Shown: positions 9,361 through 62,127 of the stretch, piece by piece | Layout of the letters: every line of letters starts with the position of its first letter | Position numbering within the stretch: position 1 is the first letter of the stretch | Source of the DNA: Sphaerolaimus hirsutus | Taxonomy: Eukaryota; Nematoda; Chromadorea; Monhysterida; Sphaerolaimidae | Length of the DNA: 64,000 nt | Reading direction: 5' to 3' | Assembly: GCA_964036195.1 (NCBI GenBank) | Contig: OZ038455.1 | Span: 6,775,855 to 6,839,854, forward strand | Program-made: the position numbers and the translations under genes | Notes under the pieces: generated by a model | The model's input: only the letters and a program-made list of their open reading frames with translations | Told to the model about the DNA's origin: nothing | Database searches by the model: none

Positions 9361-11216
9361 TAGGGTGTCAAAAAATTTTTTTTACGGAAAACGGAAAACG
9401 GAAAACGGAAAGGTAAAATTTTTTCACTTTACGGAAAACGGAAAACGGAAAGGTAAAAAAAAAATTTCTGCCGGAAAACAGAAAACGGAAAGGTAAAAAA
9501 ATTTCACTCAGCGGAAAACGGAAAACGGAAAGGTAAAAAAAAAATTTTTGGCCGGAAAACGGAAAACGGAAAAATGAAATGCCGGAAAACGGAAAACGGA
9601 AAGCCAAATTTTCACGGAAACGGAAAAAAATAAAGTGAAATTAGCACAGTAATGCTGCATGCAGGTTTGCCTGTTTGGCTTTGATTGTGGTAGCTGTACA
9701 TTCTGCAACTATGGATCATGCCTGTAACTTCACTTGTAGTTCAAGCTTAACTGAACCAACAAAAAATCATCAAAAAGTAGCCATAGTGGCCATAGGAAAG
9801 GAAACACTATGACAATTTCACAGCTTAGAAGCAGTGGGAAGCACTGATGACCCCTATGCAATTGATGACAACATTGCAGAGGAGATGATAATAAATAGCA
9901 TAAAATTCAATGACAACAACAAACAATACTATATTGACTGGCCGTATAAAGAGAGTATCAGTGACCTGCCCATGGGAAAAGCAGAAGCCTTGGTGTGGTT
10001 TAAATCACTGATAAGAAGATTCAACAAAGATCCAAACTTATTCAAACAATACCGGAAAGTTTTGGACGACCAACTAAAAAAGGGAATAATTGAGATCTGT
10101 GACAACAAAACAGACAACAAGGGGATTCATTACCTGCCACACCAGCCAGTAATCACGCCGGGCAAATCGACATCATGCATAATCGTGTACGATGGGTCGG
10201 CAGTTAAGCCCAGTTTCAACGAGTGCCTTTTTAGAGGACCAATTACAACACCATTAGCACTGGGCCTACTCCTGAGGTTCAGGGCAGGCAATTTAGCATT
10301 AATTGCCGATGTTGAAAAGGCATTTTTGCAAATAGGATTGCATGACCAAGCTAGAGACTACACAAAATTTTTCTGGCTGAAAGATGCCTCAAAACCAGTA
10401 ACTGAAAATAACTTAATAGTACTTTGTTTTAAACGCGTACTGTTTGGACTTGTCTGCAGCCCAGCAATTTTGGGAGCAGTCATAAAATACCATTTAAATG
10501 TGACAATAAACAACATGAATGAATATGACTAAAATGAAGGGGAACAAAACCAGTTGGCAATGATAATAAAAAACATTTATGGCTGTCAAACTCCAGATCC
10601 GTCATGAATGAAATAGCAGAAAACAACAGGAGTCCAAAGGTGAATAAAATTGTCGCAGTAATGGGCATGAAATAAAATCACCAAAGGGACATGCTGGCAA
10701 TATCAACACCAAAATTGCAAATTGACAGCATCACAACACCAACCAGACCAAACTTGAATAAATTATTGGTGTCAGCATATGACCCAATTGGGTTCACAGC
10801 ACCTGTTTCATTGACCCTGAAATCCCAGTTGTCAATGCTGCTCCAAGAGACAAAAACAACACAATGGGATGAGCCAATTGAAGATAAATACAGATTGGAA
10901 AAACAATGGGAAAATGCCAGAAAACTGAAAATCGAGCCAGAAAATGGAAAAATGGCCTGGTAAAACGGAAACGGAAAGGTAAAAATTTTTCAGCCGGAAA
11001 ACGGAAAAATGGGCCGGAAAAACGGAAACGGAAAGGTAAAAAATTTTCAGCTGCCGGAAAACGGAAAACGGAAAGGTAAAATTTTTTCGGCTGCCGGAAA
11101 ACGGAAAACGGAAAGGTAAAAATTTGTCGGCTGCCGGAAAACGGAAAACGGAAAGGTAAAAAATTTTCCTGCGGAAAGGCGGAAACGGAAAACGGAAACG
11201 GAAATTTGACACCCTA
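9361..11216 (+). mobile_element. hAT-like element with CGGAAAA minisatellite and captured BEL/Pao fragment
   Basis: Terminal repeats are TAGGGTGTCAAA at the left and TTTGACACCCTA at the right, starting YARNG as in hAT transposons. Next to each end are arrays of CGGAAAACGGAAAACGGAAAGG; near 11050-11160 these form 40-bp higher-order units. The centre holds a decayed retrotransposon pol fragment. The left flank (cccaatac) does not match the right flank (cttgggac), so either recombination has occurred or the boundaries are not from a single event. A relative at 24182-24746 shares the sub-terminal phrase around GCATGCAGGTTTGCC but lacks pol. Confidence 0.75.
9825..10963 (+). pseudogene. Degenerate BEL/Pao-type retrotransposon pol (RT and following region)
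   Basis: The first open stretch (to 10532) has the order typical of BEL/Pao reverse transcriptase: a KKGIIE segment, YLPHQPVITP, a VYDGSA box, LFRGP, then ADVEKAFLQIGL containing the first catalytic Asp and a LFGLVCSP box. The reading is broken where the catalytic Y-x-D-D region should follow: after KNIY the frame runs into stops near 10605 and 10674. Homology resumes from about 10690 with SAYDPIGFTAPVSL and a following WDEPI box, as in the region C-terminal to RT. No LTRs, gag, protease or integrase are visible. It cannot encode an active polymerase. Both sides are flanked by CGGAAAA arrays. Confidence 0.88.
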
Positions 11217-11224
11217 CTTGGGAC

Positions 11225-11324
11225 TAGGGTGTCAAAAAAATTTTCTTTACGGAAAACCAAAAGGTAAAAAATTTACCTGCGGAAAGGCGGAAACGGAAAA
11301 CGGAAACGGAAATTTGGCACCCTA
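11225..11324 (+). mobile_element. 100-bp TAGGGTGTCAAA mini-element with perfect 8-bp TSD
   Basis: TAGGGTGTCAAA to TTTGGCACCCTA, with CTTGGGAC on both sides (11217-11224 and 11325-11332). The TSD fits the hAT pattern nTnnnnAn. It consists almost only of termini plus a few CGGAAA units. Confidence 0.85.
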
Positions 11325-11885
11325 CTTGGGACTGCCCCCTGGCGCCATTTTTACTTGACATTCGTGCAAAGCGCCATTTTGCTCTTCTGGCGCCAGATGT
11401 CGGAAAAGCGCCACGCCAAAACGCGTTTGGCGCTCCGCGCCAAACTTTTGGCGCTTTTTAGATCACTACATAGGATAATTTCGCTAATATCGGACAACTA
11501 GCTGACAGTGAGAGAGAAATGAAAAGGGCGTGTCGTTTATTAAGAGTAAAACCAGCATATAGGTAAGTATTTATATTATAGCGATAATGAATATAAATGA
11601 TATTTACCAAACACACGATAATGTGTAAAAAGTGTTCACACAAAAAAAACAACGAAAAATCAAAATACCTCCAAGTGTTACCATGCTTTTGCTACCCAAA
11701 AAGGTGTAAAAAACGTCAATTAAGTTGCAAGCGGTTTAATTGAACAATATGAGATTTGTTCCAAGTATTTACATACCACTGTAATGTGTAAGATTATTTG
11801 TAGGAACTTTCCCATGATGTGTGAGAGCAGTGAAAAGCATGACGATTTTATATGTTGAAACGCTCACAAACAAAGGTACACTGTA

Positions 11886-12114
11886 TACTCAGCAGACTTG
11901 ACACTCTGCACTCCCACATCTATGTCTCACGTTGGAAGCGTGCCAATGATAATTACCGCATGCGATTTTTGTAAAATGTTACAAAACTTCATTGTTGTGA
12001 ATACATCAATGTTTGACATTGTTTGATATTCATGATTTGTTCAACTTTTTTTTAAATCGACTGCGTTAAATACAGTTGGCAAGCTTCCAGCATGAACCAC
12101 TCGTGCAAGGAGTA
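11886..12114. mobile_element. TA-flanked MITE, TACTCAGCAGAC end
   Basis: TA at 11884-11885 and 12115-12116. The ends are TACTC/GAGTA, and the inner phrase GGAAGCGTGCCAATGATAAT is shared with the host MITE at 24163-24983. Confidence 0.7.
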
Positions 12115-13940
12115 TACCATATAATGATTTATGACAATTGAAAAGACAATTTATGGTACGCTGGCAAGATGATATAAAGTCGTCGGTGAAAACAAAGACA
12201 AAAAAATGTAGAAAAAGCTCATAAAGCATGGTTGGTTCGATACCGAAGTAAATATTAACAACGCAAAAAAACTACCGCAATATGAAAAAAGGGGTAAAAA
12301 ATGGTTTCCTCACAAGAACCTATCACAGCCAAAAAACAAACATTTATGACATGTGTTGCTGTTCAAAAAGTTCTGAGACAGAATTTGTGATAAAATGTGA
12401 AATTTATGATAATTCTTGATTTTTTGCATCCATATCTCGCAGAGATAATCATCTATCAATAGCACGATATTCACATTTATTTCAGAGCAAATTTTGGCAT
12501 CCTTTCTGGCCAAAAAAAATTGATACACTATGTTGCATGAAATTCCGGAAATTTATATCGTGAATTTTCTGGTTATGTTCAAATGCAAAGAAACATGGCT
12601 GTCAATTTTGACGGATAAGCTCAGAACTTAATGAATATCCGGTACAAAAATGAGAAACATATTTCAAATATCAAACATATAGGTATATACGTGTAAAATA
12701 ATGAACATAGACTAATGTATGTTGCCATGACATCAAAAGTTCATGTGACAGATTTACATTGTAATCTGTGATGTAGCTCAAGCTTGTGCAGGGTTAGTGC
12801 ATACTAATATCAACTGATTGCATATTTTACGATTAACTCTACCATAATTCATCAGAATAAAAACGTATTTCATTTGTCAGATTACATTTCTCTCACTATG
12901 GATAAATTTTGTGCACAATTATTCACGTGCCTTTGATCGTTAAAATACGGTAACAGTCATCTTTTCATTGTATAGACTCCTGCCAGTCAGTACAAATATT
13001 TACATACACTTTCATTATTTAATAAACATTCAATTTGAAGTTTTCTGAAAGTTCTTAGAAGGTAAACTTGCACATACGCACGCAAATACAAAAAAAATTA
13101 TGCACTGACCCTACGCAAGCATTTCTTATTTATTTCCCTTTTTATATCCCTTCTTGCATACCCACTTAGGGTTTTTCAGTATACCTGAAAGCTTTATAAT
13201 ATATGGGTGAATTGATACGTGGCTGGAAATGTGAAATTCAGAAAAGAATTTATCAAATGTCATAAAAATGCACTTTTGGCTAAGCCACTTGAAGTGAAGT
13301 GTGAGTGAATCTAAATTGAAATTTTATGACACACTTTTGAAATTGAGTAAGATTAAAAAATATAATTTTTTGGCACTTTTCCAACCGCCCAAACTCACCC
13401 AAAGACACGGTGACATGAGGATTCTGAATCAGTCACAAAAATACTAAAAGTAGCGAGAAGAACAACTGGCTTCGAAATTAAAATAATTGAATCATGGTGA
13501 AAATGGTAAATGTTGGAACCCGACTGTGGCCATAATTCAAACATTACAGGAAAAAATAAACAGAAAATAAAAATGCTACTCAAAACATTATTTGAAGCGA
13601 ATCAAATATTATAATAGTAAATACGTCAGGTGATCATCATCAATAGTTCCTAGAAAATGTTTTTACTTTTTCCCTACCTAAATATATGTGTAAATACCTA
13701 GGTACATGTCATATACATGTTCCATAAGATTCCTATTCTAAGCATTGTAAATCTAATCCAAATTCAACTAATACTTAATTCATTTTCAAATCAACATCAA
13801 AAATTTAGACAATTTTGTAAAGCATGGTGAAATGTGGCAAAATACATACATTCCATAAGATACATACATACATGAAGACTTCTGAAAATTAGCTGACAAT
13901 ATTAATCGCAGAAAACAGAGCAGAGCCATTGAAAACCAGG

Positions 13941-14086: not shown

Positions 14087-14163
14087 GCATTGAAAAAATC
14101 ATACGTGATTTATTTATTTTTTAACTCTCAATAAATATTAAACATGTATAAAGTTATTATATA

Positions 14164-15118: not shown

Positions 15119-15139
15119 AACAAATATGCGGGAACATTA

Positions 15140-15255: not shown

Positions 15256-18200
15256 CTGCGATGAATTTTATTTGTGGGATTAATTTTTGATTTTTGAACA
15301 CTTTTGGAAAACAATGAATTTTTGGAGAAAAAATCCAGTTGTACTTGTGATGATTAGGTTTGATTCAAAGTGTGATAATGTGCCTGGGCACACGCACACT
15401 TGGTGCCAATCCCAGACCCCGTGAAAAGCCCTGTAAAATGTCAAATGTTATGCAAAGTGTCAAAAGTCATGGAAAATGCCCTGCACAAGACACTTTGCAT
15501 GACATTTGACATTTTGTAGGGCTTTTTACAAGGTTTGGGAGTGCCCCCTGTTTACACACGAAATTTCGAAAACTCGCAAATCAGCTTAGGATGCATTTGA
15601 GTTCTCTGTAACGCTGGCAAACAGTCGAAAAAAAGTATTTAAATTTTTAAGTGGTTTTTCTGAAATGAATTTTCGAATTTCGAATTTTCGAATCTTTTTG
15701 GCAATTTTCGAATTTTTTTGACTAGTTTTTGAATTTTTTTGGAAAAATATTGAATCTGAAGCTTTAAACACATAACTTGTACTGTTTTCATGTTCTCCTA
15801 AGTTTTTATAACCTTATTTTATACCATATTTTAGCATTAAAAACGGTGGAAGGCATTATACAGACCAATGTCTTGCTTCTTCATTTAATTCACACATTGA
15901 CACATTTTATTCACCAACACAGCAAAGGCAATAAAAACAACAATTTAAAAATCAGTGCCAAATAAAATATCGGCATCAAATAGAATATTGGCTTCAAATA
16001 AAAAAATTGGCATCAAATACCGTATTTCCTAGAATTAATCCCCCCCCCCCCGGGGGGGTTTATTACTTTGCCAGAAATTTTTCGAAATCCGAGAATGAAG
16101 TTGTTGTTTGTAAGTAACACAGATGTCAAAAATGCAACAACAACCGCCATTTATAAGACTTTATAGACTTATATAAGTACGTAGACGGTACAAACCATGT
16201 TCTAACACAACACGTTCATTGTTTTTAACGTGTGTTCTGCGTTTCCCAGATAACAAACCGCCATTACGTTCTCTATACATCAAATATGGGGGGGGGGTAT
16301 TTCAAGGGGGGTTATAAATTCGTAGTGCAAATATTTAGTGGGGTATTTTGAGGGGGGGGGGGTATTTCAAGAAAATACGGTATAAAAACAGATGTGTCGA
16401 AGTCCGCCTCTTCCGCCGCGGATGACATTTCAATGTTTTTTTGTTACGTTTCGCTTTTTCGCATATCAATTGTCGATTTATTTAGCATGTTGAACTTAAG
16501 AGTGCGTTTTGTTGCCTTGAATTCCCTGAAAAATTCGAAAACTATTTTCGAATTTTCGAATTTTTTGAAAAATAAATCGATTTTTAAGTGTTTTTGGTAG
16601 GGGTGAAATAAAAATTCTAAAATTCCGAAAAAATTCGAAAATGTTTTCGAATTTTCGAATTTTTTTTGGCCATCGTGACGGAGATTACAATGACTCATTG
16701 TTGAAAACTTAAACACGTTCAAAGCATTAATGAATTTTAACATTAGTGAGTTTTCGAAATTTCATGTGAAAACTAGTATGCGCAGGGCCAATAGTTTTGA
16801 ATGTAAAATTTGGTTGCATTTCGCATTTCCAACAGGTAAATACTTGAATGATTTTAAAACAGAAAATTATTTAAAAAATCAACAAGTTTTCAAACAGGGC
16901 GGGGTGACCTCCACACGTCAAAAAGCCTCCAAAATCCCCCCCCCCCTAAAAAACACTCACTTTCGGTCATCCGCAAGGAATTGCTCCTTTTCACCTTGGC
17001 AGTTCTGTGCTTCAAATAATCCACATTGAAACTGCCCCAACCGTGGTCGTTTTTGGCGCGGATTTGAATGTCGTACAGGGTGTTCGCTTCAACTTGATCG
17101 ATTATATAGTTTGATGACCAGGTGTGACGCTGGGTTTTCGATAGCAATGTGCTCGCTGAATTGGGGGGGGGGTATTTTTTTTTATTTATTAAAAAAGCAT
17201 TTCTGGGTGTGGTGAATGTTTTTTTTCGCAAAGTTCCATTCACAATGCTTTTCGTGATTATTCACACTAATTTGTTTTTTTCTTTTTACTTACTCAAGTG
17301 TGCACACTATTAGTAAAGATAACGATAAAACATGGTTAGCGTTCTAAAAAATGGGTGCTTAGCAGAAAATATAGTTAAATATACAGGGTGCGGCAATTTA
17401 GACGGACCCCATAAAGTTTTGAAAAACTTGTCACTGGGTAGTCGGATTAACGTCAAATGTTAGGTCAACATTGACAACTAAATAGGAAAGGATCCCTGAA
17501 AATATGGCTGCGATAGCTCCACTCGTTCACAAGTTATTCATGTGAACGCGTAATTGTCACTTTTCCACCACCTTGTGATATCGTTCAAACGGGATTGACT
17601 TCTCGGGACCGGGGTCGGGGTCGGATTGTTTTTTTCAGGGTTTTTTTTTCTGATTTTCTTTTCGCAGCTGCATGCCTAAATGCGTGCACGCTCGCCAGCA
17701 ATTCGCTATGCCCACAAGGAAATCGGCGGGCGCTTGCGTAATTGGTCGTAAAGCTAGGTGGTGGAAAAGTGACAATTACACGTTTCAATGAATAACTTGA
17801 GAACGAGTCGAGCTATCGCTGCCATATTTTCAGAGATTCTTTCCTATTTAGTTGTTAATGTTGACCTAAAATTTGACGTCAATCCGACTACCCAGTGACA
17901 AGTTATTCAAAACTTTATGGGGTCCGTCTAAATTGCCGCACCCTGTAATCTCATAAAAAATCCCCAAAAGTGCGTTATAATTAAATTTCGCTGAAAAAAT
18001 GCTAAGAAAGTACTAATAAATATAAATGGGCGATTTTTTACATTTTTTTCTCATAAAATAAATATACCTAATTAGATACATCTTCCCGGAAACAAACCTG
18101 GAGAAAATATGACTAAATATCAAATTTATAAATATTTTCGTGTATTTTAAAATACATCAATCTCCCGAAATATTTGGAACCCTAAAAAACGGTACCAACA

Positions 18201-21200
18201 TCAAATTAAACCCCCCCCCCCCCGAAACAGACCCTTCCTAGGCTCGTAAAATACCGTATTCCACTGATCCAAACCCAATGTGTCACTCTTCCCCATATGA
18301 GGCTTCCAGCGGATTTCATACTCAGTGATATCGCTCGCAGATTGTATATGCCAGCGAAGCGAAATTCTGTTTCCATAGGTGCCATCTACTGAAATCAAGG
18401 GGGGTCCGGGCAGGCCTGGAATTTTTTAGGGGGGTTATTTGAGGGGTGGGTTTTTTGGTGATTGGATTAATGCCGTTTTGGGTATGTAAAATCTTATCTT
18501 AATCACAATCCGTCTCGAAAAGTTCTGGGGAAATAATAGCCCCGGGAAACAGCCCCTCAAAATTTTCACTTTGAAAAATAAAGCGGCACTTTTAAACCGG
18601 CACTTATCACATAACTCTTGCCCTTTGGCACCCTCAAATATCGCAAATCAAAACTAATGGCAGAAATGCAACCACCAATGAAACGAACCAGTCAATGCGA
18701 CATCCACTTTTTTCTCGCCCATATGATTAGCCACTCTGCACGTGTAAGTGCCGAAATCCGCCTCGTTCACGTCATTGATACTCAGGAAAACTTCCGTGTG
18801 ATTATCGCGAACTGCTTGGAACATTGCCAAACGGCCCGGAGTTGACAACTGGGGGGGGGGAATTGAAAGTGGGAATTTTGTTCGGAAAATTGGGGAGGGG
18901 GTAGTAATGTTACTACAGAAAATGTATTTTATAATATTTTGGGTTTAGAAATTTATGTATGTTTACTTTCCAGAATCAAATCTTTTTGTAAAATCAAATT
19001 TTTGAATTCAAAAGGGGCGGCTATCCATTGTGCGGTGATTTTGATATCTTTTCGTCTAAATGCATGAAGTGCTGTAATGTTTTTTATTATTTGAAAAGGA
19101 AACGTTACTGATTTGAAGGAAGGTTGAACAATTAGGCGAAAATCTAGAATAGCAAAGAAAACAGAATAGAAACATGGTGAAAAACAGGCCATCCTCAAAT
19201 AATCTTCCCTTAAACACCCACCTCCCCAATCATTAAAAAAAACAAAAAAAACTGACCTCCAACGGAAAATTGTTGTGCATCCAAGTGACCTGCGGTTCCG
19301 GTTCGGCCACAAAAACGCACGTCAAATTGACAGATTCCCCTATGGCGCCGGCGATCATTCTGTGCGGCGTGTGCACTTGGGGCGCGACTGCGTAGGGCGC
19401 AAAAGTAGGGTTTAGGGTAGGTTTTTCGTAGGGATTTTGCAGGGATGTAGGGATTCTAAGGCGCGCCACCCTGTGGTGTAGAAATGGGAAAAGTTCCAGA
19501 TTTAAGGGGTCACTGGTCAATGGCGCCAGTTTAATAAATGGGAAGGGACAACTTTAATAGGGGTGAATATAACTATTTCTGTCTGTAGGTACATATTTAC
19601 ATTATTTTGACCGCGCTTTGATTGCGACCCATTTTAACGCAGAATTGAATGCTCAATGGTGCCGCATTGTGATAATATTTTTAAGAAAACGTTTCGGAAA
19701 ATTGAGAGACACCGGTGGAGACACAGCAAAATGACAACATGTGTTTGTACTTTACCATATACCGTATTACCTCGAATTATCCCCCCCCCCGTGAATTAAC
19801 CCCCCCCCCCTCGAAATACCCCCCTAAATTTCGGCTGAGGAAATAATAAACCCACCCCTCGAAATACCCCCCCTAAAATTGACATGACCCCCGTACATGA
19901 CAAATACCGCAGTTTGTGATCTGTACAATGCAGAACACACGTTAAAACTGATGATAAAGTGACGTTAGGGAAGGGTTTTTGTGTATATACAGTAATATAT
20001 GCCTATAAACACATATAAATCTATGTAATTGTTCGATTTTTCTACAACTGTGTATGGGGAATTTCCGATAATTTCTGGCGAAATAATAGACCCCCCCCTC
20101 GAATAAACCCCCTCCCCCCTCGAATTATCCCCCCCCCCTCAAATTTTGCTGGCGAAATAATAAACCCCCTGGGGGTATTTGGAGGTAATACGGTATTGGC
20201 CAATGGTGGTACTATTCGAATTTCATCTAATATTATGATTATATTTTTCAACATTTTCAAAAAATGTTTGTGTATGCACATCACAATTTCGTCTATTAGC
20301 TAACTTCTAAAATTTAAGGGCTTTTTAGCAATTTGATAAGAAGTCTACCCATCCGAAACCCACACATAACCCAATGAAAAACATCACTATGATGAATATT
20401 TAGGCAACATTACATGCGGAAAGGTAACACAACACTAATTATATGTAGCACATTCACATCTACTATCATAAGAACATAGAAAACGAACACCCAAGCACGA
20501 AACATAGAAAATCCTTACCATCAACGCTGGCATTTGGCGCTGGAAAATACATTCTAACTTATACATAAATAAAACAATGAGTCACAAAGAAATGAAGTAT
20601 TTGCTTCAAAAATACCCCCCCCCCCCCCGCTATTAGTGGGGGGAGGGTGGCAAGTGAGAACACCGCCCATAAAGGCCAACTATCTATTTTGCAGAAATTT
20701 TTTTTGCTACCACAAACATACAACCAATGAAATCAATACCCACTGTTAATTTGTATGTGAAAATGCGCACGTGCGCATAAATAAATTGCAAAATACCACT
20801 CAAACATACATTTGAAAAACCCAAAAACCCAACCCCACCCAAAAACCTCAACCAAAACCAAACTCACAATGCACATTGACCCTTATCTGCCTTCGATCTT
20901 CACCCAAATCGTTTCTGGCCGTACATTCGTACGTGCCGGAATCCGCGGAAGTAGCCTTGGCGATGTAAAATCGACCCCCTTTTGCGGATGTTTTGGTGGC
21001 CTTGCCCCCTTGGACACTTGTAGATGGAGGGGTTTCGTCCTGGGTTGTTGGGGGATTGAGAAGGTAGGGTTTTTTTGGTATACTCTACTCCGTCTTTTTC
21101 TTTTTAAAATATTCTCTTTTTTGTGAAACTCTTTTTGGTATACTCGGCGAACCGTAACCATGCATGCATGCTATGCATTTTTCTGAAGAGAACACTCCAC

Positions 21201-24162: not shown

Positions 24163-24983
24163 TACTCCAGTTACTTTACTCTAGGGTGTCAACAAAAACT
24201 TTTTGGTGGAAAACGGAAACGGAAACGGAAAAAGTTTGCACTTGCCGGAAAACGGAAACAGAAACGGAAAAAAATTTCCACCTGCCGGAAAACGGAAAAC
24301 GGAAAAATGAAAGCCCGGAAAACGGTAACGGAAACAGAAAAATTTGCTGAAATTATGCCGGAAACGGAAAAAATTTGCTGAAATTTTGCCGGAAACGGAA
24401 AAAAAATTGCACAAATTTATCCAGAAATCAAAAAATTTGCAGAAATCTTGCTAGAAATAGAAACAATTCACATAATTTAGAACCTGCATGCATGTTTACC
24501 AGTTTGGCTGAAACAGAAAACAGATAATTGAGCCAGAAAATGAAAAAAAGTTGGAAAAACATACAATTGAGCCGGAAAACGGAAAAAAGGCGGAAAAACT
24601 GAAATTTTAGCCGGAAAACGGAAAATGAGCCGGAAAAACGGAAACGGAAACGGAAAAAAAATTTAGCAGCCGGAAAACGGAAACGGAAAAAAATTTGCCT
24701 GAGGAAAGCGTAAACGGAAAACGGAAAACGGAAAGTTGACACCCTACTTTACACCCTGCACGCGTGGTTCCGCTGGAAGCGTGCCAACGGTTTTTTAATG
24801 CATGCGATTTTCAAAAAAAGTTGTAAAAAGTCATCGCTGTTATAACGCTATACGTCAACCAATTCACAACAATGATGATTTTATTCATCTTTTACACAAA
24901 CATCGCATGCTTTATCACCATTGGCACGCTGCCAACGTGAGACATAAATGAGTGCGAGGGCAGAGTATCATGTCAGCCGAGTA
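24163..24983. mobile_element. TA-inserted MITE carrying a nested CGGAAAA element
   Basis: Ends TACTC...GAGTA, flanked by TA at 24161-24162 and 24984-24985. The left copy has the empty TA at 670-671. The host MITE resembles 11886-12114, and 24182-24746 is inserted in it. Confidence 0.87.
24182..24746 (+). mobile_element. 565-bp hAT-like element filled with CGGAAAACGG minisatellite
   Basis: TAGGGTGTCAAC...GTTGACACCCTA, flanked by CTTTACTC and CTTTACAC (7 of 8 match). Nearly all of it is CGGAAAA/CGGAAAC repeat with a short unique centre (GCATGCATGTTTACC) shared with 9361-11216. Confidence 0.85.
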
Positions 24984-25491: not shown

Positions 25492-27939
25492 TAAATCTCC
25501 CTAGATTTTCAGAAGGCTTATGACATGTGTGATGCTAAATCCCGTCTTCAAATCGACTCGCATTTCCCTGCCGAGCGCAATTTTAGTATATAGGCGCCAC
25601 GCGCCAAAAAAAGGCGCCAACGAAAAGTAAAATAGCAATAAAAGGCGCAAATACATCACTATTCAGTAAAATACAACAGTGTACCATAAAGTGAATACTT
25701 TTTCCACCGGTCCGCGTAGAATACATTCATAGAGGAGTGAAATTGAATTTTTTGCTGTGCATTGCACACGACTGCAGCAACGTAGCACTGCATACATGCA
25801 CACTGGTTCAAAAATGCGACATTTTTGTGCGGGGGGGGGGGGGGGTAAATCGAGGCATTTATTCTTGAGTGGGATTGGGACGATATAAATACCTTTCGAT
25901 GTCGATACTCGATATTTTTTAGAAATCTGTCGCCGGCGCTATTTTTTACACCAGGACACGTAAATACAACGCTTGTATTTACGTATTTATCAAGTATACA
26001 CGTAGATTGACTGTCATTTGCGGGGAATTCAATAGAAAGCACATATCACATATCTATTGTCACCAAAAACATTGAAAAGCCTTTGCAAAAGTAGGATTCA
26101 AAAATATTAAACCTTTTTTCATCGATATTATTTTTTTCAGCCACGAACGGGTTCAAAGCCCATGATTCAATTATCATTCTGTACTGTATTTTTAGTTTTT
26201 ACCCTTAAATGAATAAAACTGTACCTGAATAAAGCTATCAATATTAAGACATTTGACTCTGTAATAAATCGACGTCAACCCACTACCCAATTATAAATAC
26301 AGTACACAATAACCCCCCCTCGAATAGCCGCCCTAAAAACCCCCTTCATACTTAACAAAAACCAAGAGTCAACCCCCAATGACAAATGAGCATATATCAT
26401 CTGGTCATAATAAGACTCACATGTAGCTAACACATGTAAGCTAACAAACTTGGCCTAGTATAAGCTACTGTTCTATTTATAGCATTCTTTACTACACATT
26501 CGTTTTGTCACTAATTAGTTATTTTACTAGGTCTACTGATTCTACTTACTGAGCGCTATATAAAGAATGTTACCGTATTTTTATGAATAAAGCACCGACG
26601 TTTTTTTGTGCGCCAAATTCTCCCATAGTGAGGATAATGTAATCTGATGATATATTTTTTACAAATTTTTGGATTTTATTCAGATGGGATATGGTAGATC
26701 GATGGACATGACTCAATTAGCCACTCTATTAGAAGAATTATGGTATTTTTATATTTATTAGAGACAACAGGTAAATTACAAGTACACAGGTTATTTATTT
26801 TTCCAGTAGAAATTACCCTTCTACATACTTTTAGCCCAATGAGTAATTTTTTTGAAATTATAGAAAAATGCAAATTCCCTATGAAACAAATGTCACGGAG
26901 GCAAAATTAGCTGGGGTCTTAAATCACCGTGGAACAGTTATTTGAAAAAGAGAGTTATTTATGCGAGTTCTGACTTCTGATCTGGATGCTAATACGCGCT
27001 AAAAGTATAAAAAGCACATGTTTCTCATTAAAAAATTTTGCTCTGAAAAATTCCGACGAAAATGGGCAGAAATACTGAAACGTATGAAATCCATAAAATC
27101 TACGATCATTTGCAAAAAAAATACAAAAAGGAAAAATATATAGAAAAAGCCATCTCAAAAATATTTATCGAAAAACCGAGTCAAGTCAAGCCGAGTTAAT
27201 CTGAAGAAAGCTCCACATGGACGCACGTTAGCATTAGTGGTGTGAAAATTGTAAAATGGCGCTTAACGCCATTTTGAAGTGTCTTGTTTTAAAAATATCA
27301 AAAACTAGGATTTAGGAACAATTTCGAGTATCTATAGCTTTTCATATTTATCGTTGCCGCACGCACTAATTTACTAGGTAACGTATACGATTGGGTGCTC
27401 ATAACTCAGCTTTGAATACACTTAACTTACAGAAAGAGTTTTTTTAAACCTCCGCCAACTGCAGTTGACAGACATCTCATTCCAGTCAACTCAAAAGCCG
27501 AATTATGAGTTGACGGGCGTCTCATTTTGGCGCCTAGCGCCATTTATATTGGTGTAGGCGCCATTTACCAGCGCCTATTTTTCAACGTGTAAGCTCAAGC
27601 ATGCTCGCAGGCTATATAATCAATTTGTAAATACAAGATGAGCGCAGCCCGGAAAGTTCACTTGTTCATTCTTGTACATTTTGTTGACTTACTTGATTCG
27701 TGTATTGGAAGGTGTGTTAGTTATGAGTGAAGATTGCACTAAAAATAAGTTGAAAGTATTGTGATCATTTGAAAAAAATCTGAAATATTTTAAGGAATGC
27801 TCATCGCTTTTTTGATCCTGAATTGATGTGAAATTTTCCACCGACAATTTCTAAAGATTTCAAATTTATTTTACCTACACAAGTAAGCTATTGCTTCCTA
27901 CAATCAGTAAAATGTGAAATCAAGTGAGTTATTGTTTGA

Positions 27940-28165
27940 GGGCATTTTACATGACTTTCGACACTTTGCATGACATTTGACATTTTAAATACAGGACATT
28001 TTACATGACTTTCGACACTTTGCATGACATTTGACATCTTAAATACAGGACATTTTACATGACTTTCGACACTTTGCATGACATTTGACATTTTAAATAC
28101 AGGACATTTTACATGACTTTTGACACTCGGCATGCGTGACATGATATTTGATATTTTACATGCCT
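27940..28165. repeat. Tandem repeat, 54-bp unit
   Basis: About three 54-bp units in which TTTGCATGACATTTGACA is followed by TTTTAAATACAGGAC. Orthologous to the 38-bp array at 5200-5412, but the unit has gained 16 bp and been re-amplified. Confidence 0.8.
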
Positions 28166-37168: not shown

Positions 37169-37431
37169 TAGTGATGGAAAAGCGCCATGGCGCTGGCGCC
37201 TGGCGCTAACGCCAAAGGAAAAAGTGTCATGGCGCTTTTGGCGCTTGGCGCTATTTTGCTGTGGCGCCATTGGCGCTTGGCGCCACACCCATAAAAAGCG
37301 CCATGGCGCTTTTGGCGCTTGGCTCCATTTTTGCCTGGCGCCAGGAACAAAATATCTGGCGCTGGCGCTTGGCGCCATTGGCGCTTGGCGCTTGGGTTTG
37401 GAAAAGCGCCATGGCGCTTTTTCCATCACTA
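37169..37431. mobile_element. hAT-like MITE built of GGCGCC/GCGCCATGGCGC motifs, perfect TSD
   Basis: TAGTGATGGAAAAGCGCCAT at the left and the inverse at the right, with GTCATGAG on both sides (37161-37168, 37432-37439). The inside is repeated GGCGCT, TTGGCGC and GCGCCATGGCGC. Open frames here are low-complexity only. Confidence 0.9.
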
Positions 37432-38907: not shown

Positions 38908-40347
38908 TACCTAGATGAAAAAATTGCACTAAACTGAAAGAGAAAAATGCAAAATGCAAAAAGAACAACTTCGTTTGTAAAAAAGTGCCAAATATTTAGA
39001 ACTGGAATAGGAAATGTAATGCTGCGGTATTGCTCGATAAACACAAAATAATGCGACAAAATTGCTCCCATCCCAATGCATATTCAATTTTTTATTGCTG
39101 TTTGATGTCACCTTTACGCCCGACACTTAACTTTTTCAGAAGAGAAAAAATAACGTTCAGGAATTTTTATCAGTATCTTACATTCAACTTTGAAATGCAT
39201 CCACCAGTTTACAACTCAAATCACTCAGATACATTTCATGGGTGGTGAAATTCGAAATGATGCCAGATGGCTAGGGCAAATTTCATAAACACACACACAA
39301 CAAATTGCGAAATTTGCAAATCTCATTGGAAATTTCAGCTAATGCTGGGGGGGGGGGGCGTGGCGTATATTTACGTATCAACAGAAATAACAGGCACAAA
39401 TAATACACTAAAACCATTGTCTCGGCGCCAATTTAATCCACCACACAGGATTTCGAGATAATGTGAAAATTACAGGGTTTCAATTCAACCACACAGTAAT
39501 TTGGCTACTATTATTTGCAAATCCACAGCTAAAGCACATTTTGGAACCAAGGTGCCATTGTGGCTCAAATGTGGTATATATCCACGTCTAAATTGGTTGT
39601 AAATATAGCATAAATGTGGCAGCGTTCCAAGCTTTCTGTCACCGACACACACGTTTTATTGCGTCTGGTTTTATTGAGAGGGGGATTATTCAAGTGACGC
39701 ATAGAGATATTGTGACTGAAATAAATAAAAAGATTGATTCATTGAGACTAGTGACAATAAAAATTGTCATCATAATCTGAGAAAAGAATAGAGAAAAAGG
39801 GAAATATAATATAAATGCCGACCACCCTGCATTCAGTAGTGAGCATACACAATAATAAAGCAACATACTCAAAGTAGCGTTCCAAAAAGTGTGAATGTAA
39901 ATTCAGAAGATATAATTATATATAATCTCAGAAAATCTCTCAAAAAGAATGTAGCATTAAATATCCCTGGAGAAAAAACCGTGAAGAAATATAAATAAAT
40001 ATCAATTAAGTATATTTTTTATATTTTCTTATTTAAAAAATATAAAACCAGATTTTTGAAATGCTAACTGGGAGTAGGTCAAGTCAAGCGAGTGCATGTA
40101 GTAATTTAAATACTGACACCTCCATTCACAGCTTGCACGCAACCGTTGTAGCCAAAGAAAAAGTATTGAATTTTAATAAAACACTAGATGGAATCAAGTG
40201 AAACTACACATGCACACAGGTCGCATAAACTAGGTTGAAAAAATGACTAGGTATTTTTTGTGTGAGATAAAAAAGGGTCTGTATAGACCGAACAAAATGA
40301 CACGATGAACAACAAAATGATCACGCAACAAACACGCGATCCATGTG

Positions 40348-40851
40348 CACCAGGGGCCAGTCCCACATCTTTCAAAATGTCATGTAAAATGCAAATTGTC
40401 GGGTAAAATTTTCCTTCGGATTTTACCGGGCGGGCATCCCACCAAATCTTAGATGTTTTAGAAATTAACACTTTCAGATAGATAGTTAAGTGGCAAATGT
40501 GATTTAATTGCCATCACGACTTAACATTGCCATCTTAGGCGCAAGTCCTGGTGCGTGCCATTAAAATGCCTTGTAAATTGTCAAATGTCATGCAAAGTGT
40601 CAAAAGTCATCAAAATGTCAAAGGTTCATAAAAAATTGCATGACTTTTCTACTTTTCATGACATTTGACATTTTAAATGGCATTCGACAGGGTTAGAACC
40701 TGGGACTGGGAGGGAGTCGCACCGGCAAAACGTCAAGTGACTGACCGATAAAATTTTCTTTCAGATTTTACCGAGGATTTTACATGACATTTAAAAGGTT
40801 TCATCCAACATGCTACATGACATTTTACAGTGTGCGGGACTGGCCCCAGTG
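40348..40851. mobile_element. 504-bp palindromic element, CACCAGGGGCCAGTCCCAC ends
   Basis: CACCAGGGGCCAGTCCCAC against GCGGGACTGGCCCCAGTG, flanked by TCCATGTG and TCCGTATG (6 of 8). Inside are inverted blocks of TGTCAAATGTCATGCAAAG and ATTTTACATGACATTT. 40852-41747 has no gene; a short related piece is at 41165-41230. Confidence 0.7.
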
Positions 40852-42183
40852 TCCGTATGTCACACACCACGCACAGTGTTTCTATTTACTACACTTTATG
40901 CATGCTCCAGTTTTCTCACTCACACGCAAACAGCAACTAACTAAACTGAACTACAACTAAACTTAATTTCAGCTGACACTTTACTCAACTTAATGCAGAT
41001 GTGTTAAGTGGGGGGGAGGAAGTTGTTATACATGTTCAAAGTGGAGATGTTTCTTTTTCAGTGGAGATAAAAATAGAGATTTTATAGAATGATCATTTTT
41101 AACATTATTTGGATGCATCCATTTTGAATAATATTGCAGCTCAGGCTCACACCCAGTAGCAGTAGACTGCCCTGTAAAATGTAAAATATAATGAAAAGTG
41201 TCAAAGGTCATGTAAAATATTCTGTAAAATAGCAAACGGCAGACGACAATACTTCAGAAAAACAGCCAATAATACTAAAATTCAACCACTCTCCAAAATC
41301 CAATAAACAACTCTTCACACACTTTGCACTTTTCAATATGCTACAGCTACAAAAGCTTCCATTCTATTTATTTCCTACTTTCGCGATGCAGATGGTGGAT
41401 TGAAATTAAAACACATTGAAATGAATCAAACTAAATATATTTATTGCACAGTGGTATATAAAGTGATACAGTGACCATTATATTTAGGTGGGAAATATTT
41501 ATAGTATTTCATGTTGTTTCAAGAGTTTGGTTATTTTATTGGAAGGCTTTCTGCCCCCTATTATTCAGTTTTGAAACAGGTGACGAAATTTAATCAACTC
41601 AAGACGGTTTTCGGGGAAAAGGTGGTTCCAAATGGTTGACAATTATCAGAATTCAGAACCGAATCAAAATGGGCCGTATAATTATGTAAATTCTGATAAA
41701 AAATACACGGTATCGTTTTTAGTGTGCCTATACAACTAGTTTTCAACCAGAGTTGCGAAAGCGTATTTACGCTTACCCGAAATACCCGGGTAAATGGGTA
41801 TTTATACTTACGCTTACGCTTACGCTTTCATAAAATACCCGTACGCTTTTTTACGCTTTCCCGGCCAAAATACCCGGGTACTAAAAGCGTAAAAAAGCTT
41901 TTCACACGGTTCAGTTTTACACTTTTGAAAAAGCATAAAACCACAAAAAAGAATGAACGAAACTGCGTACAAAAAAATTACTGCGTGCGTGCGTGCAATA
42001 ATGTGATGGAAATAGTGTCACATTTACAAATTGTGTCGCAGTATGAATGTCTTGCTATAATACTGTGTCGTCGAGCAAAATAGTGGCTTCAGATAAGAAA
42101 TTTTGGGCTGAAAATGGATTCCGACGACGATGTTGTCGCCGTCGACAGCACTCACTCCAAGTTGGAAGATAAAAAATGACTTA

Positions 42184-42282
42184 CCGTGTTTCTTCTAATA
42201 GAACGGCACCTCCCATAGAACGGCAGGCAAATAAAGTTGACGAAAAAAATTTAACGGTGCTCTTCTATTAGAAGAAATACGG
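42184..42282. mobile_element. 99-bp CCGTGTTTCTTCTAATAG MITE, TA-flanked
   Basis: CCGTGTTTCTTCTAATAGAA...TTCTATTAGAAGAAATACGG between TA at 42182-42183 and 42283-42284. A distinct subfamily of the CCGTATT group. Confidence 0.85.
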
Positions 42283-42449
42283 TAAGTGCCGCTGCCGATG
42301 AATTGCCAAACAACAAGTGGACATCCGAAAAATGTCGCTGAGAGCTTGATTTGGAAAGAAATCACTGTGAAAACGTCTCTAAAAATTTTTTTCGCTTACG
42401 CTTTTATTTACGCTTTCCCAGGTATTTTAAAAATACCTTACGCTTTGAG

Positions 42450-43096
42450 TAGGGTTGGAAAAAAAAACGTTTTTTTTTTAACTCGATGTTTTTTTTAAAA
42501 AAAACAACGTTTTTTTTTAAAAGCTCCCAGATATGACCTAGTGTCAACATATATAGGTATATCAGACACTGGCAATACTCTGTGATGTTAAATATGACCA
42601 TATAATGGTAGTGGAGCCATGGGATAGCATTATAAGTGGTGATTTGTGTCAAAAATATCCATTTTTCGTCGACATATCGTTCGTATATCGCCTTATAGTC
42701 GAATGTTTGTGACTTCAGGTAAAGTTTGGCACGGAATGGTGATCAAACAAGGTTATAAAAGGAGGTTGTTACTTTGGGAGTGAAGTTACACACTGTGGAG
42801 GTACATGGAAGCACATTACCTCAATATTATATATTACAGCAACATATGTCGGCTTATTCACCCATGGTAGCACATAGAAATGGATGTTTTGATACTAAAA
42901 ATGCAACAAAACCAATGAAAACAACCACCAATGTCAATTTGTGTGTGAAATTGCGCGCTCGCGCGCAAAAATTTTGCAAAATATCTAGTGCTTAGTACTA
43001 AAAATTTCAGCCGATGTTTTTTTTTAAAAAAAAACATTTCGGACGTCATGTTTTTAAAAAAAAAAAAACGTTTAAAAAAAACATCGGCCAACCCTA
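42450..43096. mobile_element. Middle hAT-like element, TAGGGTTGG ends, perfect TSD
   Basis: TAGGGTTGGAAAAAAAAAC...CGGCCAACCCTA flanked by GCTTTGAG on both sides (42442-42449, 43097-43104). Sub-terminal arrays of ACGTTTTTTTT/TTTTTTAAAAAAAA. Centre is unique and shared with 59643-61455, without the inner insertion found there. Confidence 0.92.
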
Positions 43097-43195
43097 GCTT
43101 TGAGTACCTATCCATACTGAAAATTTGGAAAGTGTATTTACGCTTACGCTTACGCTTTCCAAAAATACCGGTATTTTAACAACTCTGTTTTCAAC

Positions 43196-51222: not shown

Positions 51223-51518
51223 CAGGGTTGGCAAAATCTCAGTAAAAAATAAATAAAATAAAAACAAAATAGAAAATTGAAGAATAGAATAAAATCAAAA
51301 TACAATTTTTTACAATTATACTACAATTTTAGTAAAAAGAATTTTACAAAAACCAATTCTGGCCACGATCTAAAATAAAAAATAAAAATAAAATGGAAGA
51401 TTGAGGAATAAAATTAAAATAAAATGGAAAATTGAAGAATAAAATTAAACTAAAATAATTTTTTTTATACAATTTTACTACAATTTTAGTAAAAATAATT
51501 TTACTAAAACCAACCCTG
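51223..51518. mobile_element. hAT-like MITE, CAGGGTTGGCAAAATC, AAAATAAAAT minisatellite
   Basis: CAGGGTTGGCAAAATC...ACTAAAACCAACCCTG flanked by CTGGCGAC and ATGGCGAC (7 of 8). Inside are repeated AATAAAATAAAA, GGAAAATTGAAGAATAAAAT and TTTTACTACAATTTTAGTAA. A fragment of the same repeat is at 57955-58025. Confidence 0.85.
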
Positions 51519-55264: not shown

Positions 55265-55266
55265 TA

Positions 55267-57300: not shown

Positions 57301-57302
57301 TA

Positions 57303-57870: not shown

Positions 57871-57922
57871 GATCTCTGTTTACTTACATGTGCATGCAGT
57901 GCACATGTAAGTAAAAAGAGAT
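57871..57922. repeat. Near-perfect hairpin, about 22-bp stem
   Basis: GATCTCTGTTTACTTACATG and its inverse CATGTAAGTAAAAAGAGATC flank a small loop around TGCATGCAGTGCA. The loop is too short for a normal miRNA precursor. Confidence 0.75.
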
Positions 57923-58802
57923 CGTGTTTCACTGCATCTGTTTCACTGAAAATAAAATGGAAAATTGAAGAATTAAATAAAAATAAAATGAAAAATGAAT
58001 TTTTTATACAATTTTATACAAATTTTCGATCTCTTATATTTCACTTCAATGTGCAGTTATTGATAGCTCTGACATGATGAGTACTCAAATATTTAAATGA
58101 TTGTCAGGTATTGATTGCACTTATACAGCTGCGTCAACTTTCTAATCCCCTATACTTCAATCTAACCGCGTACACACTGCGGTTTCCGGTTTCCAGTTGT
58201 TTACACATATAGGATATTTACACCGGTAGAAGGTTCCCTATCCTACATAGAAGGTTCCCTACAGTACATTGAAAGTTTTGCGTATCTTGCGTAGTGGGAT
58301 TCCCATTTGTACATAGACGAGGGTACGCATCGCGGGGGTTCCCAACAGTACTCTCCCGCCAAAATATGCAATATGACACCTATTCGCAATTGATAACGAA
58401 TTGTTGCATTTGCACCTGTCGCGGCGGATTCACACAATACCTTATCTTCGATTCGAGGCTTGTGATTAAAGGAGAATAGATGAATCAACTTATTTAAACT
58501 AGGTAGAATGAATTCACACAAACGTGAAAATATACGTAAATATGAGTATGCAACAATGACATAAATGTACATTTTTGTCGAAGAGAATATAATAAAATCT
58601 ACTTAAACTGGTGTACAGAAGGAAATAAATTTACCTAGGTGTGAAAATGTGCAAACAGCCCAAGGTCGACTTTTTTGAAAAAATATGCAATATTTTCTGC
58701 GGTTGCGACAATCTATCAAGTGCACCTGCCAGTGGGCGGCCATACACGGTGGTTCACACAAATTGATTTTCAGTTTGAACGAACTTGTATTTATATATAT
58801 TA

Positions 58803-59104
58803 CCGTATAGTTTTGAATAAATGCCCACGGGTAGTTATTCGGGGGGGGGGGGTATTTATCAGTAAAAGAATTACTTCGAAACACGACTTTTGACGGGGGG
58901 AGGGGTCGTTTGTCAATTCATTTTTTCAATTCAAATACAAAACTAGGTAGGTACGTAAATATTCAAATAACAGTTATCAACAACTAGCTAAGTGTGGCTT
59001 TATTTTTGTCAGCGAAAAAATTGGTGGGGAGTCATTTTTTTGCTCATCTCAGTTACAACCAGGTAGGTTATTAGACAGTTGGAGGATTATTCTACAAAAT
59101 ACGG
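58803..59104. mobile_element. CCGTATAGTTTTGAATAA MITE, diverged
   Basis: CCGTATAGTTTTGAATAA...GGATTATTCTACAAAATACGG with TA at 58801-58802 and 59105-59106; G11 near 58841. Confidence 0.68.
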
Positions 59105-60087
59105 TAACCCAGAGAACGCGCGCAGTAAATATCAATGGAAATTGTAAACACCATCTATATTCAAGAATCAAGAAAGGCACTGACAAGTGCTCTTGGCTAT
59201 TCAATAGATCGGGTGAGAAAAATTCGTGCCAATTTACAACGCAATGAAGCCAATTGTGCATGCATTTAGCATACTGCAGCATGTGTTTGATCGATGTCAG
59301 CGTAAATATTGATCATGTGCATTCACTGTTCACATGAAACCATAGCTGTTAAAAGTATTTACGTTTACTCAAAAAATACGTATACTCGAGTAGAGTAAAT
59401 ACGTTTACGTATACTTTGAAAAAAGTTCCTGTACTCGCTTTTACGTATACGTTTTGAAAGTACGCGAGTACAGAAAACGTATTTCAGATAGTCTTTTATG
59501 TCGATTTTTGAAGGCATAGAAGGAAAAAATGAGAGAATTTGCTAAAAACATGGAAAAATAATTGACAATGAACATATAAGCACATATCTAACCAAAATTG
59601 GGTTAAAATATGCAAAACGTTATGAAAATTTATGATCTTGAGTAGGGTTGGAAAAAAAACGTTTTTTTAACTCGATGTTTTTTTATAAAAAAACGTTTTT
59701 TTAAATAAAAAACGTTTTTTTAAAAGCTCCCAGATATGACCTTGTGTCAACATATATAGGTATATCAGACAGTGACAATACTCTGTGATGTTATATATGA
59801 CCATATAATGTCTGTGGAGCCATGGGATAGCATTATAAGTGGTGATTTGTGTCAAAAATATCCATTTTTCTACGACATATCGTTCGTATATCGCCTTATA
59901 GTCAAATGTTCGTGACTTCCAAGTGAAGTTTGGCATGGTATAGTGATCAAACAAGGTTATAAAAGAAGGTTGTTACTTTGGGAGTGATATGTTACACACT
60001 GTGGAGGTACATGGAAGCACATTACCTCAATATTATATACTACAGCAACATATTACGGCTTATTAACCCATGGTAGCAGATAGAAAT

Positions 60088-61219
60088 TAGGGTTGGGAAT
60101 TTCAAAATTTTCGGTTCCGGTTCTCGGTTCTCGGTTCTAAAAAATTTCGGTTCGGTTCTCGGTTCTCGGTTCCTCAAAATTTTCGGTTCCGGTTCTCGGT
60201 TCGGTTCTTAAGTTCGGTTCCGGTTCGGTTCTTTCGGTTCCAAATTGTCAAAAATTTCGGTTCCGGGTAATAAAAAGGTCGGGTATCGGGTAATGAAAAA
60301 ATCGGAAATAAGAAAATAATATGCGGAACAAAGGAAAAACAACATAAAACAACCTCCCCCTACAATTTTGCCCCTGTAGTGGCGGAATGGTGTCATGGCA
60401 CTCGCGCCATTCATAGGCACCACGCCATGGCGCGATTGGCGTTGGCGTAGGTGCCCCAGACGGCCAAAACTTGGTGTGCATGTAAACCCAGTGTGCATGT
60501 AGACCCCTTGCTTCGGGGGCCAGGTACATATCCAGGATTTATGAGCCTGCTGTATGGGAGGGGGATTCAGCCACCCACCCTAAAAGTTTACCTACATGGT
60601 GACGAAATGGCATCATGGCGCTGGCGCCATTGGCATTGGTGCCAAAAATCTCTGATATGTATGTTTATACATGTACATATAGAGAGACTGGCACCCCACT
60701 TGCTGTATTTTTTGAGAGAATAGTACGCTTACCAATGTACTTCTAAAATATCAGTGTGATGGAAAAATGTGGGAAAATGGGCCTACATGCGCACCAGGTT
60801 TACACGCACACTGGCACAGACCCCCACAGACTGCTGTATATGTATTTGACATACATATACACATTTTAGGTGGGATCGTGAACACATGAGGCTGCGCGAC
60901 CGGTGAGATGAAATCACCGGTCGCGTGAATCAAGAATTGCGCGCTTGCGCGCAAAATTTTTTGACAAATGACCCTAAAATTGATGCCGGAAGTTACATTT
61001 CCATGCATATCCCTACTCTCACCCAGGAAGGGGGGAGGCGGCCGATTATTTTATAAAATTTCGGTTCTTTCGGTTCTTTAGTTCGGTTCCGGGTCTAAGT
61101 GCCGGTTCTCGGTTCCGGTTCGGGTATTTTTTTCGGTTCCGGTTCTCGGTTCTCGGTTCCAAAATTGTGCTCGGTTCTCGGTTCGGTTCGGTTCGGTTCG
61201 GTTCGGTTCCCCAACCCTA
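60088..61219. mobile_element. Inner hAT-like element, CGGTTCT minisatellite, perfect TSD
   Basis: TAGGGTTGGGAATTTC...TCCCCAACCCTA flanked by ATAGAAAT on both sides (60080-60087, 61220-61227). The sibling at 42450-43096 has a single ATAGAAAT (42874-42881), the empty site. Arrays of CGGTTCTCGGTTCCGG fill both ends; the centre (60260-61050) is unique, with GGCGCC patches. Confidence 0.94.
60895..60925. repeat. Perfect hairpin CGCGACCGGTGA / TCACCGGTCGCG
   Basis: A 12-bp GC-rich stem with loop GATGAAA, inside the innermost hAT-like element; GCGCGCTTGCGCGC follows at 60939. Confidence 0.75.
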
Positions 61220-62127
61220 ATAGAAATGGATACTTTGATACTAAAAATGCCACAAAACCAATGAAAACAACCACCAGTGTCAATTTGTGTGTGAAATTGC
61301 GCGCTTGCGCACGAAATTTTTGCAAAATACCTAGTGCTTAGTACTAAAAATTTCGGCCGATGTTTTTTTAAAAAAAAACATTTCGGACGTCATGTTATTT
61401 AAAAAACAACGTTTTTTTAAATAAAAAACGTTTAAAAAAACATTGGCCAACCCTTATCTTGAGTTAAAATTGGAGTGACATTCCTAAAAAATACTCACGT
61501 TTACGTTTTGCGGAGGGAAAAGTACGTTTACTCACGTTTACTCATGAGTAAAAGTAAAAAATTGTACTTCACGTTTTCTGTACTCAAGGGGTGAGTAAAA
61601 AATAAATACTTTACGTTTACGTATACTTTGATAAAAGTTCGGTACTTTTAACAACTCTGACGTATACTCGAGTACTGAACAAATACGTTTACTTTTCTCC
61701 CGTAAACAATACCTGTACCTTCACGCGTACCTTTTAAAAGTACGCGAGTACAGAAAACGTATTTCGAAAAATTAATGGGGTGCATAACAAGCAAAAAAGA
61801 CTCAGAAGAATTGAAACAGCCGCGAAAGCGGCAGCGGAAATGATTGAAGTTGCAAAGGGTAGAGAAAGCGATGACTCTCACTTTTGCTTTTACTCACTTT
61901 TATGTTTTCCAGGGTACAAAATAAAAAAAAATACTCGCTTTTACTCATGATTTTACCTTACTCGCCATGAGTTTACTGGTATTCACGTTTACTCACCTTT
62001 TATGCACCGAAAAAGTAAAAAAATTACTTGAAGTTTCTGTTCAAAGGTGTGAAATTTTTTTATACTTTATGTTTTTTTTACTCCCGGAAAAATCCCGGTA
62101 CATGCTTTTAACGACTTTTTATGAAAC

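Follow-up and report, generated by a model that had tools for sequence, protein, structure and literature searches.

The stretch of DNA analyzed here (the window; 64,000 nucleotides of the nematode Sphaerolaimus hirsutus, 6775855-6839854 of its contig in an assembly of 348 Mb and 762 contigs) contains a series of hAT-like transposable elements with terminal inverted repeats (TIRs), 8-bp target site duplications (TSDs) and tandem copies of short words (Table 1). Some sister families of these elements keep their tips and alter nearly every word, as if the word were a replaceable address label for the jumping enzyme. We describe the TIRs, TSDs, protein domains and word arrays of the elements, the near-pure version of the word in each element of the switched families, and the set-wise difference between sisters that share a TIR.

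Table 1. Word-bearing elements of the window (upper rows) and genomic lineages with PF05699 inside their elements (lower rows)
Feature	Position or loci	Strand	Remarks
CGGAAAA-family element, 1857 bp	9361..11217	+	good TIRs, TAGGGTGTCAAA; no TSD
Pao/BEL retrotransposon fragment within 9361 element	9813..10963	+	domain matches
CGGAAAA-family element, 100 bp	11225..11324	+	TSD CTTGGGAC
CGGAAAA-family element	24182..24746	+	TSD CTTTACTC/CTTTACAC (7/8)
GGCGCC-family element, 263 bp	37169..37431	.	TIR TAGTGATGGAAA, TSD GTCATGAG
TTACGC-family element, split by 42450 element	41748..43187	+	TIR CAGAGTTG, TSD TTTTCAAC
ACGTTTTT-family element, nested within 41748 element	42450..43096	+	TSD GCTTTGAG
AAAATAAAAT-family element	51223..51518	+	TIR CAGGGTTGG, TSD CTGGCGAC/ATGGCGAC (7/8)
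ACGTTTTT-family element, split by 60088 element	59643..61455	+	TSD ATCTTGAG; right tip mutated (AAGGG)
CGGTTC-family element, nested within 59643 element	60088..61219	+	TSD ATAGAAAT
Lineage TAGGGTGTC, word CGGAAA	L009, L010, L014, L028, L029, L030, L033, L036		PF05699 inside
Lineage CAGAGTTG, word ACGTAA	L012, L015		PF05699 inside
Lineage TAACGATGGCAA, word TTCGAA	L021, L022, L024, L025, L026, L032, L034		PF05699 inside; L024 and L025 are a duplication

Elements of the window and their genomic copies

A preliminary description of the window had proposed eight elements with 8-bp flanking duplications, and their coordinates are correct; the duplication matches at 8/8 positions in six of them and at 7/8 in the elements at 24182 and 51223. 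It had united them in one family, whereas the sampled elements belong to several. The YARNG start that it ascribed to all TIRs is seen across the window elements, save at the mutated right tip of the 59643 element.

Each family was searched in the genome, the best 40 copies being scored and the flanks of sampled copies inspected; the window copy is counted among the rows for CGGAAAA, AAAATAAAAT, GGCGCC and TTACGC. A perfect 8-bp TSD flanks 27/28 CGGAAAA copies, 20/20 ACGTTTTT copies, 16/17 TTACGC copies, 9/10 CGGTTC copies and 22/30 AAAATAAAAT copies (three more match at 7/8, four are worse, and in one both edges are not present). For GGCGCC, 16/20 rows are perfect, one is bad and three are without both edges; a locus with three tandem copies was dropped. 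That locus (L091, 1-2301) holds the GGCGCC element with a period of ~874 bp, a transposon becoming a satellite. Perfect TSDs are thus present in most sampled rows of all six word families, so that a lack of 8-bp TSDs in genomic copies, the outcome named beforehand as contrary to the proposal, is not seen in the sample. For most copies of 24182-24746, 42450-43096, 60088-61219 and 51223-51518, both edges of the genome match fall at the proposed boundaries to within a few bases, and the left edges of the 37169 and 41748 elements are consistent with the matches. Insertion sites differ between copies, except at a few duplicated loci that share a TSD (L002/L003, L114/L119).

A family-blind scan of 280,446 bases (the window and loci L001-L066), in which pairs of YARNG tips with at least 10/12 matching bases and exact flanking duplications were collected, gave 1, 0, 43, 0 and 0 pairs for duplications of 6, 7, 8, 9 and 10 bp, respectively. 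Among TSDs with at most one mismatch in five families, position 2 is T in 65/105 and position 7 is A in 65/105. The nTnnnnAn pattern, to which a single TSD of the window (GCTTTGAG) is an exception, therefore stands as a preference and not as a rule. Being short, non-coding and multicopy, with TIRs and TSDs, the elements are miniature inverted-repeat transposable elements, apart from the 9361 element and the domain-bearing elements described below, which carry coding fragments.

A PF05699 profile search of the genome returned 28 matches. Of these, 17 fall within TIR-bearing elements that have perfect 8-bp TSDs and belong to three lineages. Five translated fragments match the hAT dimerization domain with E values from 4e-18 to 2e-7, one of them from L017, outside such elements. 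At L017/L018, two hAT dimerization domains lie ~0.85 kb apart and adjoin a GGCGCC element. The domain-bearing elements, which were recruited through the protein domain and not through words, are 1.0-1.95 kb long and are read as internal deletions. On the basis of the 8-bp TSDs, the TIRs, and the hAT domain within same-TIR elements of three lineages, the assignment of the elements to the hAT superfamily, mostly as non-autonomous members, is well supported.

Word arrays and their switch between sister families

The tandem words that the preliminary description saw as the body of each element are more numerous than in any of 500 dinucleotide shuffles for CGGAAAA, GGCGC, TTACGC, CGGTTC and ACGTTTTT, while they are marginal for AACGTT in the 42450 element (count reached in 8/500 shuffles), AAAATAAAAT (6/500) and AAAATAAA (1/500). 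With word-specific shuffles the support for ACGTTTTT is modest, and among 6-mers of at least three letters neither the ACGTTTTT nor the AAAATAAAAT counts are above the shuffles. Crowding toward the ends, likewise claimed for most words, is seen in the 24182, CGGTTC and TTACGC elements, where terminal zones hold 93-100% of the words, but not in the 263-bp GGCGCC element (60% vs 66% expected). In the family-blind scan, 15 pairs lie apart from the sequence that recruited their locus, and in 12/15 of these the top 6-mer beats all 100 dinucleotide shuffles.

While the TIRs are inverted, the words are direct. The 9361 element has 42 CGGAAA and 27 AAACGG exclusively on the + strand; the 24182 element has 30 and 20, with zero on the - strand. 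In the 60088 element all 34 CGGTTC lie on the + strand, 17 in each half, against 0 on the other, and the corresponding splits are 12 vs 2 for TACGCT and 14 vs 1 for ACGTAA. The same strand predominates at both ends for CGGAAA, CGGTTC, CGGGAC, CGGGAT, TACGCT and ACGTAA; GGCGCC, TTCGAA and CGATAT are near-palindromic and uninformative on direction. AAACGG occurs 17-27 times in 8/11 CGGAAAA elements examined, 14 times in L014, 6 times in L027 and 3 times in the 100-bp element.

The arrays are not an addition made in short elements. All 15 scored elements of the 17 with a domain have a word above the shuffles, with 91-100% of the words in terminal zones vs 44-56% expected; the seven scored CGGAAA elements among them contain 29-37 words on a single strand (11-19 in one half and 16-18 in the other). 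Since elements recruited by the domain carry end words, the arrays are a trait of the domain-bearing relatives rather than an invention of the short ones. Between two of these, L009 and L029, identity is 92% in words, 80% in array spacers and 75% in the interior, and comparisons with L013 give 73-79%, 63-65% and 58-67%, respectively.

In the CAGAGTTG TIR family, L012, a domain-bearing ACGTAA element, shares its TIR and framework with the TTACGC elements. Alignment reveals a TACGCT to TACGTT difference at 13/14 sites, with one gap; the other word positions are equal at 70/70, and spacers at 212/263. Across 32 TACGCT/TACGTT pairs, 304/304 aligned word sites differ, including 30/30 inverted ones, and spacers are the same at 4,254/5,009 positions. 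A 32-place pattern covering an inverted and a direct word is matched 1,060 + 1,053 times (2,113) in the genome, against 0 for the control. Among 100 matches listed and tallied by hand, 43 are G..C, 55 are A..T, 2 have another base, and none is mixed.

Another switch is seen in the TAGGGTTCAAACG TIR family, whose TIR is matched exactly at 7,752 forward and 7,762 reverse sites of the genome (15,514; reversed pattern, 5 + 3). The 20 forward-reverse pairs that head the listing were taken as a sample, in which 15 TSDs are perfect, one is 7/8, one is 6/8 and three are worse. Six of these elements carry CGGGAC, ten CGGGAT and four CGATAT, each with 6-72 words of its own version and 0 or 1 of another. 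The words that abut the TIR match the version of the element at both ends in 19/20, the exception, L177, having one altered base. The 20 elements are copies from three subfamilies and not 20 independent events, so the evolutionary weight rests on the colinear comparison and not on this tally. Between L180 and L175, both ends together, position 6 of 26 CGGGAC words reads T in 24 cases, including two inverted copies, and is unchanged in one and gapped in one; positions 1-5 are conserved at 130/130 and spacers at 107/155 (69%). The alignment of their left ends, 167 columns long, contains three 1-base gaps. When six CGGGAC and nine CGGGAT elements are compared in all 54 pairs, excluding L171 (100 bp), position 6 differs at 531/600 sites, positions 1-5 are identical at 3,004/3,210 and spacers at 4,171/6,358, and 76/81 inverted word sites are switched. 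CGGGAT and CGATAT differ by GG/AT, not C/T, in an alignment that spans 70 bp.

The CGGGAT element L167 has its array as a threefold higher-order repeat, in which the spacing series is repeated three times. The TAGTGATG clan has a suggestive yet noisy GCGCC/GCACC switch. The 51223 element contains an internal direct duplication of 107 bp with 86% identity. The 9361-11217 element, which lacks a TSD, directly precedes a second, TSD-bearing element and may have arisen by a rearrangement or by transposition with swapped ends; its Pao/BEL fragment matches Peptidase_A17 at 8.2e-7 (10676-10963) and RVT_1 at 6.2e-4, below the cut-off (9813-10529). By eye, other elements at ~376-496, 1458-1928 and 19760-20195 have tips that resemble TACCGTATTACCTCGAAT or TACCGTATTACCTCTAATATAAGG and carry tandem words of their own, CCCCCCTCGAATTA and CCTTATATTAGAGGGTA; these tips are not hAT-like, and end-arrays may therefore not be limited to hAT. 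A satellite-like word, TTTTACATGAC/CATTTGACATTTTA, recurs at 5199-5373, 15424-15478, 27939-28134 and 40291-40634, where hAT tips were not seen with it.

Alternative origins of the words

The words could be neutral minisatellites homogenized by slippage, unequal exchange or gene conversion, that is, by concerted evolution with no protein reader. Array duplication does occur in some copies (threefold in L167; AAAATAAAAT copies range from 287 to 371 bp), and 6-bp steps favor slippage. However, homogenization would be expected to disturb the spacers too, and L180 and L175 have stayed colinear at their left ends despite 69% spacer identity. The switch moreover spans separate runs, both ends and inverted copies (24/26; inverted 76/81 and 30/30). 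Considering these data, we regard a neutral origin as unlikely, though it is the alternative that fares best.

A different proposal is that the word arrays act as strand-directional methylation sensors in addition to address labels. Methylation itself is plausible, because CpG transitions are 4-7 fold more frequent than those at other C/G in CGGAAAA, ACGTTTTT and TTACGC copies and because the CpG of the CGGAAA word decays alike at both ends. CpG is present in every named word but AAAATAAAAT, and the words of the CGGAAAA elements occupy a single strand at both ends. The idea is motivated, no more, by the Ac transposase, which reads hemimethylation strand-wise according to excerpts of PMC5371812 and PMC3878927. 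If binding depended on the strand of a hemimethylated word, then after replication the ends of one chromatid would both be permissive and those of the other closed, which would allow chromatid-selective jumping without the one-ended methylation of Ac. Against it, the word CpGs of TTACGC (3/253) and ACGTTTTT (0/58) barely decay, and GGCGCC has no CpG transition excess, on an alignment too poor to use. We hold the sensor role to be doubtful. In CGGAAAA copies (L001-L008, L067-L086), decayed word CpGs stand at TG/CA ~10/19 in the left third and ~20/11 in the right; with a Fisher p of 0.04 in one family chosen post hoc, we make no claim on this asymmetry.

Context-specific C to T mutation, such as non-CpG deamination, could in principle change words without selection. 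The two switches that are well resolved are of the C/T kind, and in the CGGGAC/CGGGAT pair non-word C after A is also changed to T at 186/333 sites, degenerate words included. The contexts of the two switches differ, however (GAC-C vs CGC-T), and neither is CpG. In the TACGCT/TACGTT pair, C outside words is mostly unchanged in its most frequent contexts while 304/304 aligned word sites differ, GCT outside words being too rare to compare, and the CGGGAT/CGATAT difference is a GG/AT change. Mutation of this kind is a very unlikely source of the switches, less clearly so for CGGGAC/CGGGAT.

That the elements form a foldback or Mutator/P-type group instead of hAT is highly improbable. Tandem repeats near the ends are known from Tetris (8-10 bp TSDs) and Galileo in the accessible part of PMC4079207, but the hAT domain in three lineages, the YARNG TIR, and TSDs of exactly 8 bp with a T2/A7 preference stand against it, as does the orientation of the arrays, which is shared by the two ends in most families. 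A foldback structure was rejected because the words are same-direction and not arranged as inverted arrays. The TU elements of sea urchins have a TSD of 8 bp, and the outer part of their inverted repeats contains tandem repeats; their arrays are inverted, in contrast to those described here.

Finally, the insertion of unrelated TIR elements into independent satellites, which the preliminary description had listed as contrary to its claim, has next to no likelihood and is rejected for the sampled copies, since the arrays travel within TSD-bounded units at insertion sites that vary save for a few duplicated loci, even though TRF sees the words as minisatellites.

A predicted recognition code and its relatives

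We consider it likely that the transposases of these elements recognize the conserved TIR tip together with a family word of ~6 bp, typically present 10-40 times near both ends. The word would most likely be a subterminal binding site of the transposase, as predicted from the site-by-site switching and from motif classes of BED proteins that match the words. This prediction gains indirectly from the presence of words in domain-bearing relatives, their conservation above spacers, the set-wise switching, and a match to the Ac hexamer. A BED zinc finger of the transposase would bind the word, and the many sites may load several transposase subunits, like the subterminal repeats of Ac and Hermes. 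Were the specificity of the transposase to drift, elements with words that follow would be mobilized and others would die, such that the word set switches at a constant TIR. The pattern seen, in which the same word position changes in separate runs, at either end and on either strand while the spacers drift on their own, is the trace expected from selection by a changed reader.

Several results weigh against a word-reading transposase. The support for AAAATAAAAT is marginal, 3/15 of the unseeded elements have no word above all shuffles, and the word advantage is small between L013 and L009 (73% vs 65-67%). The top 6-mer reaches 3-9 copies in twelve 900-bp flanks of the domain-bearing loci, some of which hold other elements, vs a lowest element count of 10. 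The zf-BED (PF02892) and RNase-H domains were not found in these elements, where introns may break frames. A genome search with PF14372 gave zero matches, its control being silent as well, and among the best 40 copies in a search with the L009 interior, several of them partial, none was recognized by coordinates as reaching toward the transposase N-terminus. No transposase fragment was seen for TAGGGTTCAAACG, CGGTTC, ACGTTTTT or AAAATAAAAT, and no hAT dimerization domain inside elements of these four families or of GGCGCC. The autonomous same-TIR hAT transposase anticipated in the preliminary description was thus not recognized in the PF05699, PF02892, PF14372 and L009-interior searches. In the latter, C4:27677346-27678648 has ~0.66 kb extra separating the match pieces. 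The eight zf-BED Pfam matches found genome-wide include seven within ~0.2 Mb (C1:7466186-7680097), perhaps a host ZBED-like gene cluster.

The idea of a short transposase-bound word is itself precedented in Ac, Tol2, Hermes and Galileo, and the comparisons that follow draw on the accessible parts of the papers cited. Maize Ac/Ds shares the 8-bp TSD, a TIR (C/TAGGGATGAAA) that resembles TAGGGTGTCAA, and short non-autonomous derivatives (PMC3260210). Within its terminal 200 bp, Ac has multiple AAACGG hexamers to which its transposase binds (PMC3260210); here, AAACGG recurs near both ends in the CGGAAAA family only. Three hexamers suffice in the 5' end of Ac, whereas dense arrays with 17-27 AAACGG are found in most CGGAAAA elements examined, and version switching is not described for Ac in the part of PMC3260210 available. 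The BED domains of Hermes bind AAGT/AAGC, a short subterminal repeat that occurs many times, 17 at one end and 14 at the other, and is scattered and not minisatellite-like (PMC10368747). In Herves, the transposase has a short subterminal binding motif at both ends, CG/AATTCAT, not described as an array in the accessible text (PMC3143072). For Tol2, a highly repetitive subterminal sequence is essential to transposition, judging from the title of Urasaki 2006. Galileo and Tetris have internal tandem repeats near their ends, and those of Galileo hold extra transposase sites; Tetris is assigned to Mutator, however, the Galileo transposase has a THAP domain, and the repeats lie within inverted TIRs (PMC4079207). 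Coral miniature inverted-repeat elements, considered as close relatives, were set aside as TTAA elements that are not close (PMC2872659, in part).

A link to a reader comes from hAT-derived BED proteins, which prefer CGG, GCGC or AT-rich motifs; the subterminal regions belonging to four hAT proteins contain matches to the motifs of these proteins (PMC8097297). These classes, from CGG-binding proteins and hAT-19 transposases with BED and Hermes domains, recur here as CGGAAA/CGGTTC/CGGGAC, GGCGCC and AAAATAAAAT. As far as the available part of PMC8097297 goes, it studied proteins and not word arrays or set-wise switching. No report of set-wise switching was found in the literature searched, where subscription papers were mostly outside reach.

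How a recognition code with dozens of sites can change is a hard question, because the enzyme and all the sites must change together. Since the CAGAGTTG and TAGGGTTCAAACG tip families keep both states colinear, with thousands of exact tip matches, this question becomes directly testable with regard to the BED residue that reads the switched base, the cross-mobilization of sister families, and the order of site changes. The arrays may also offer a guess, from sequence alone, at the binding word of uncharacterized hAT transposases, and they provide a possible reason why some minisatellites of this genome lie at transposon ends.

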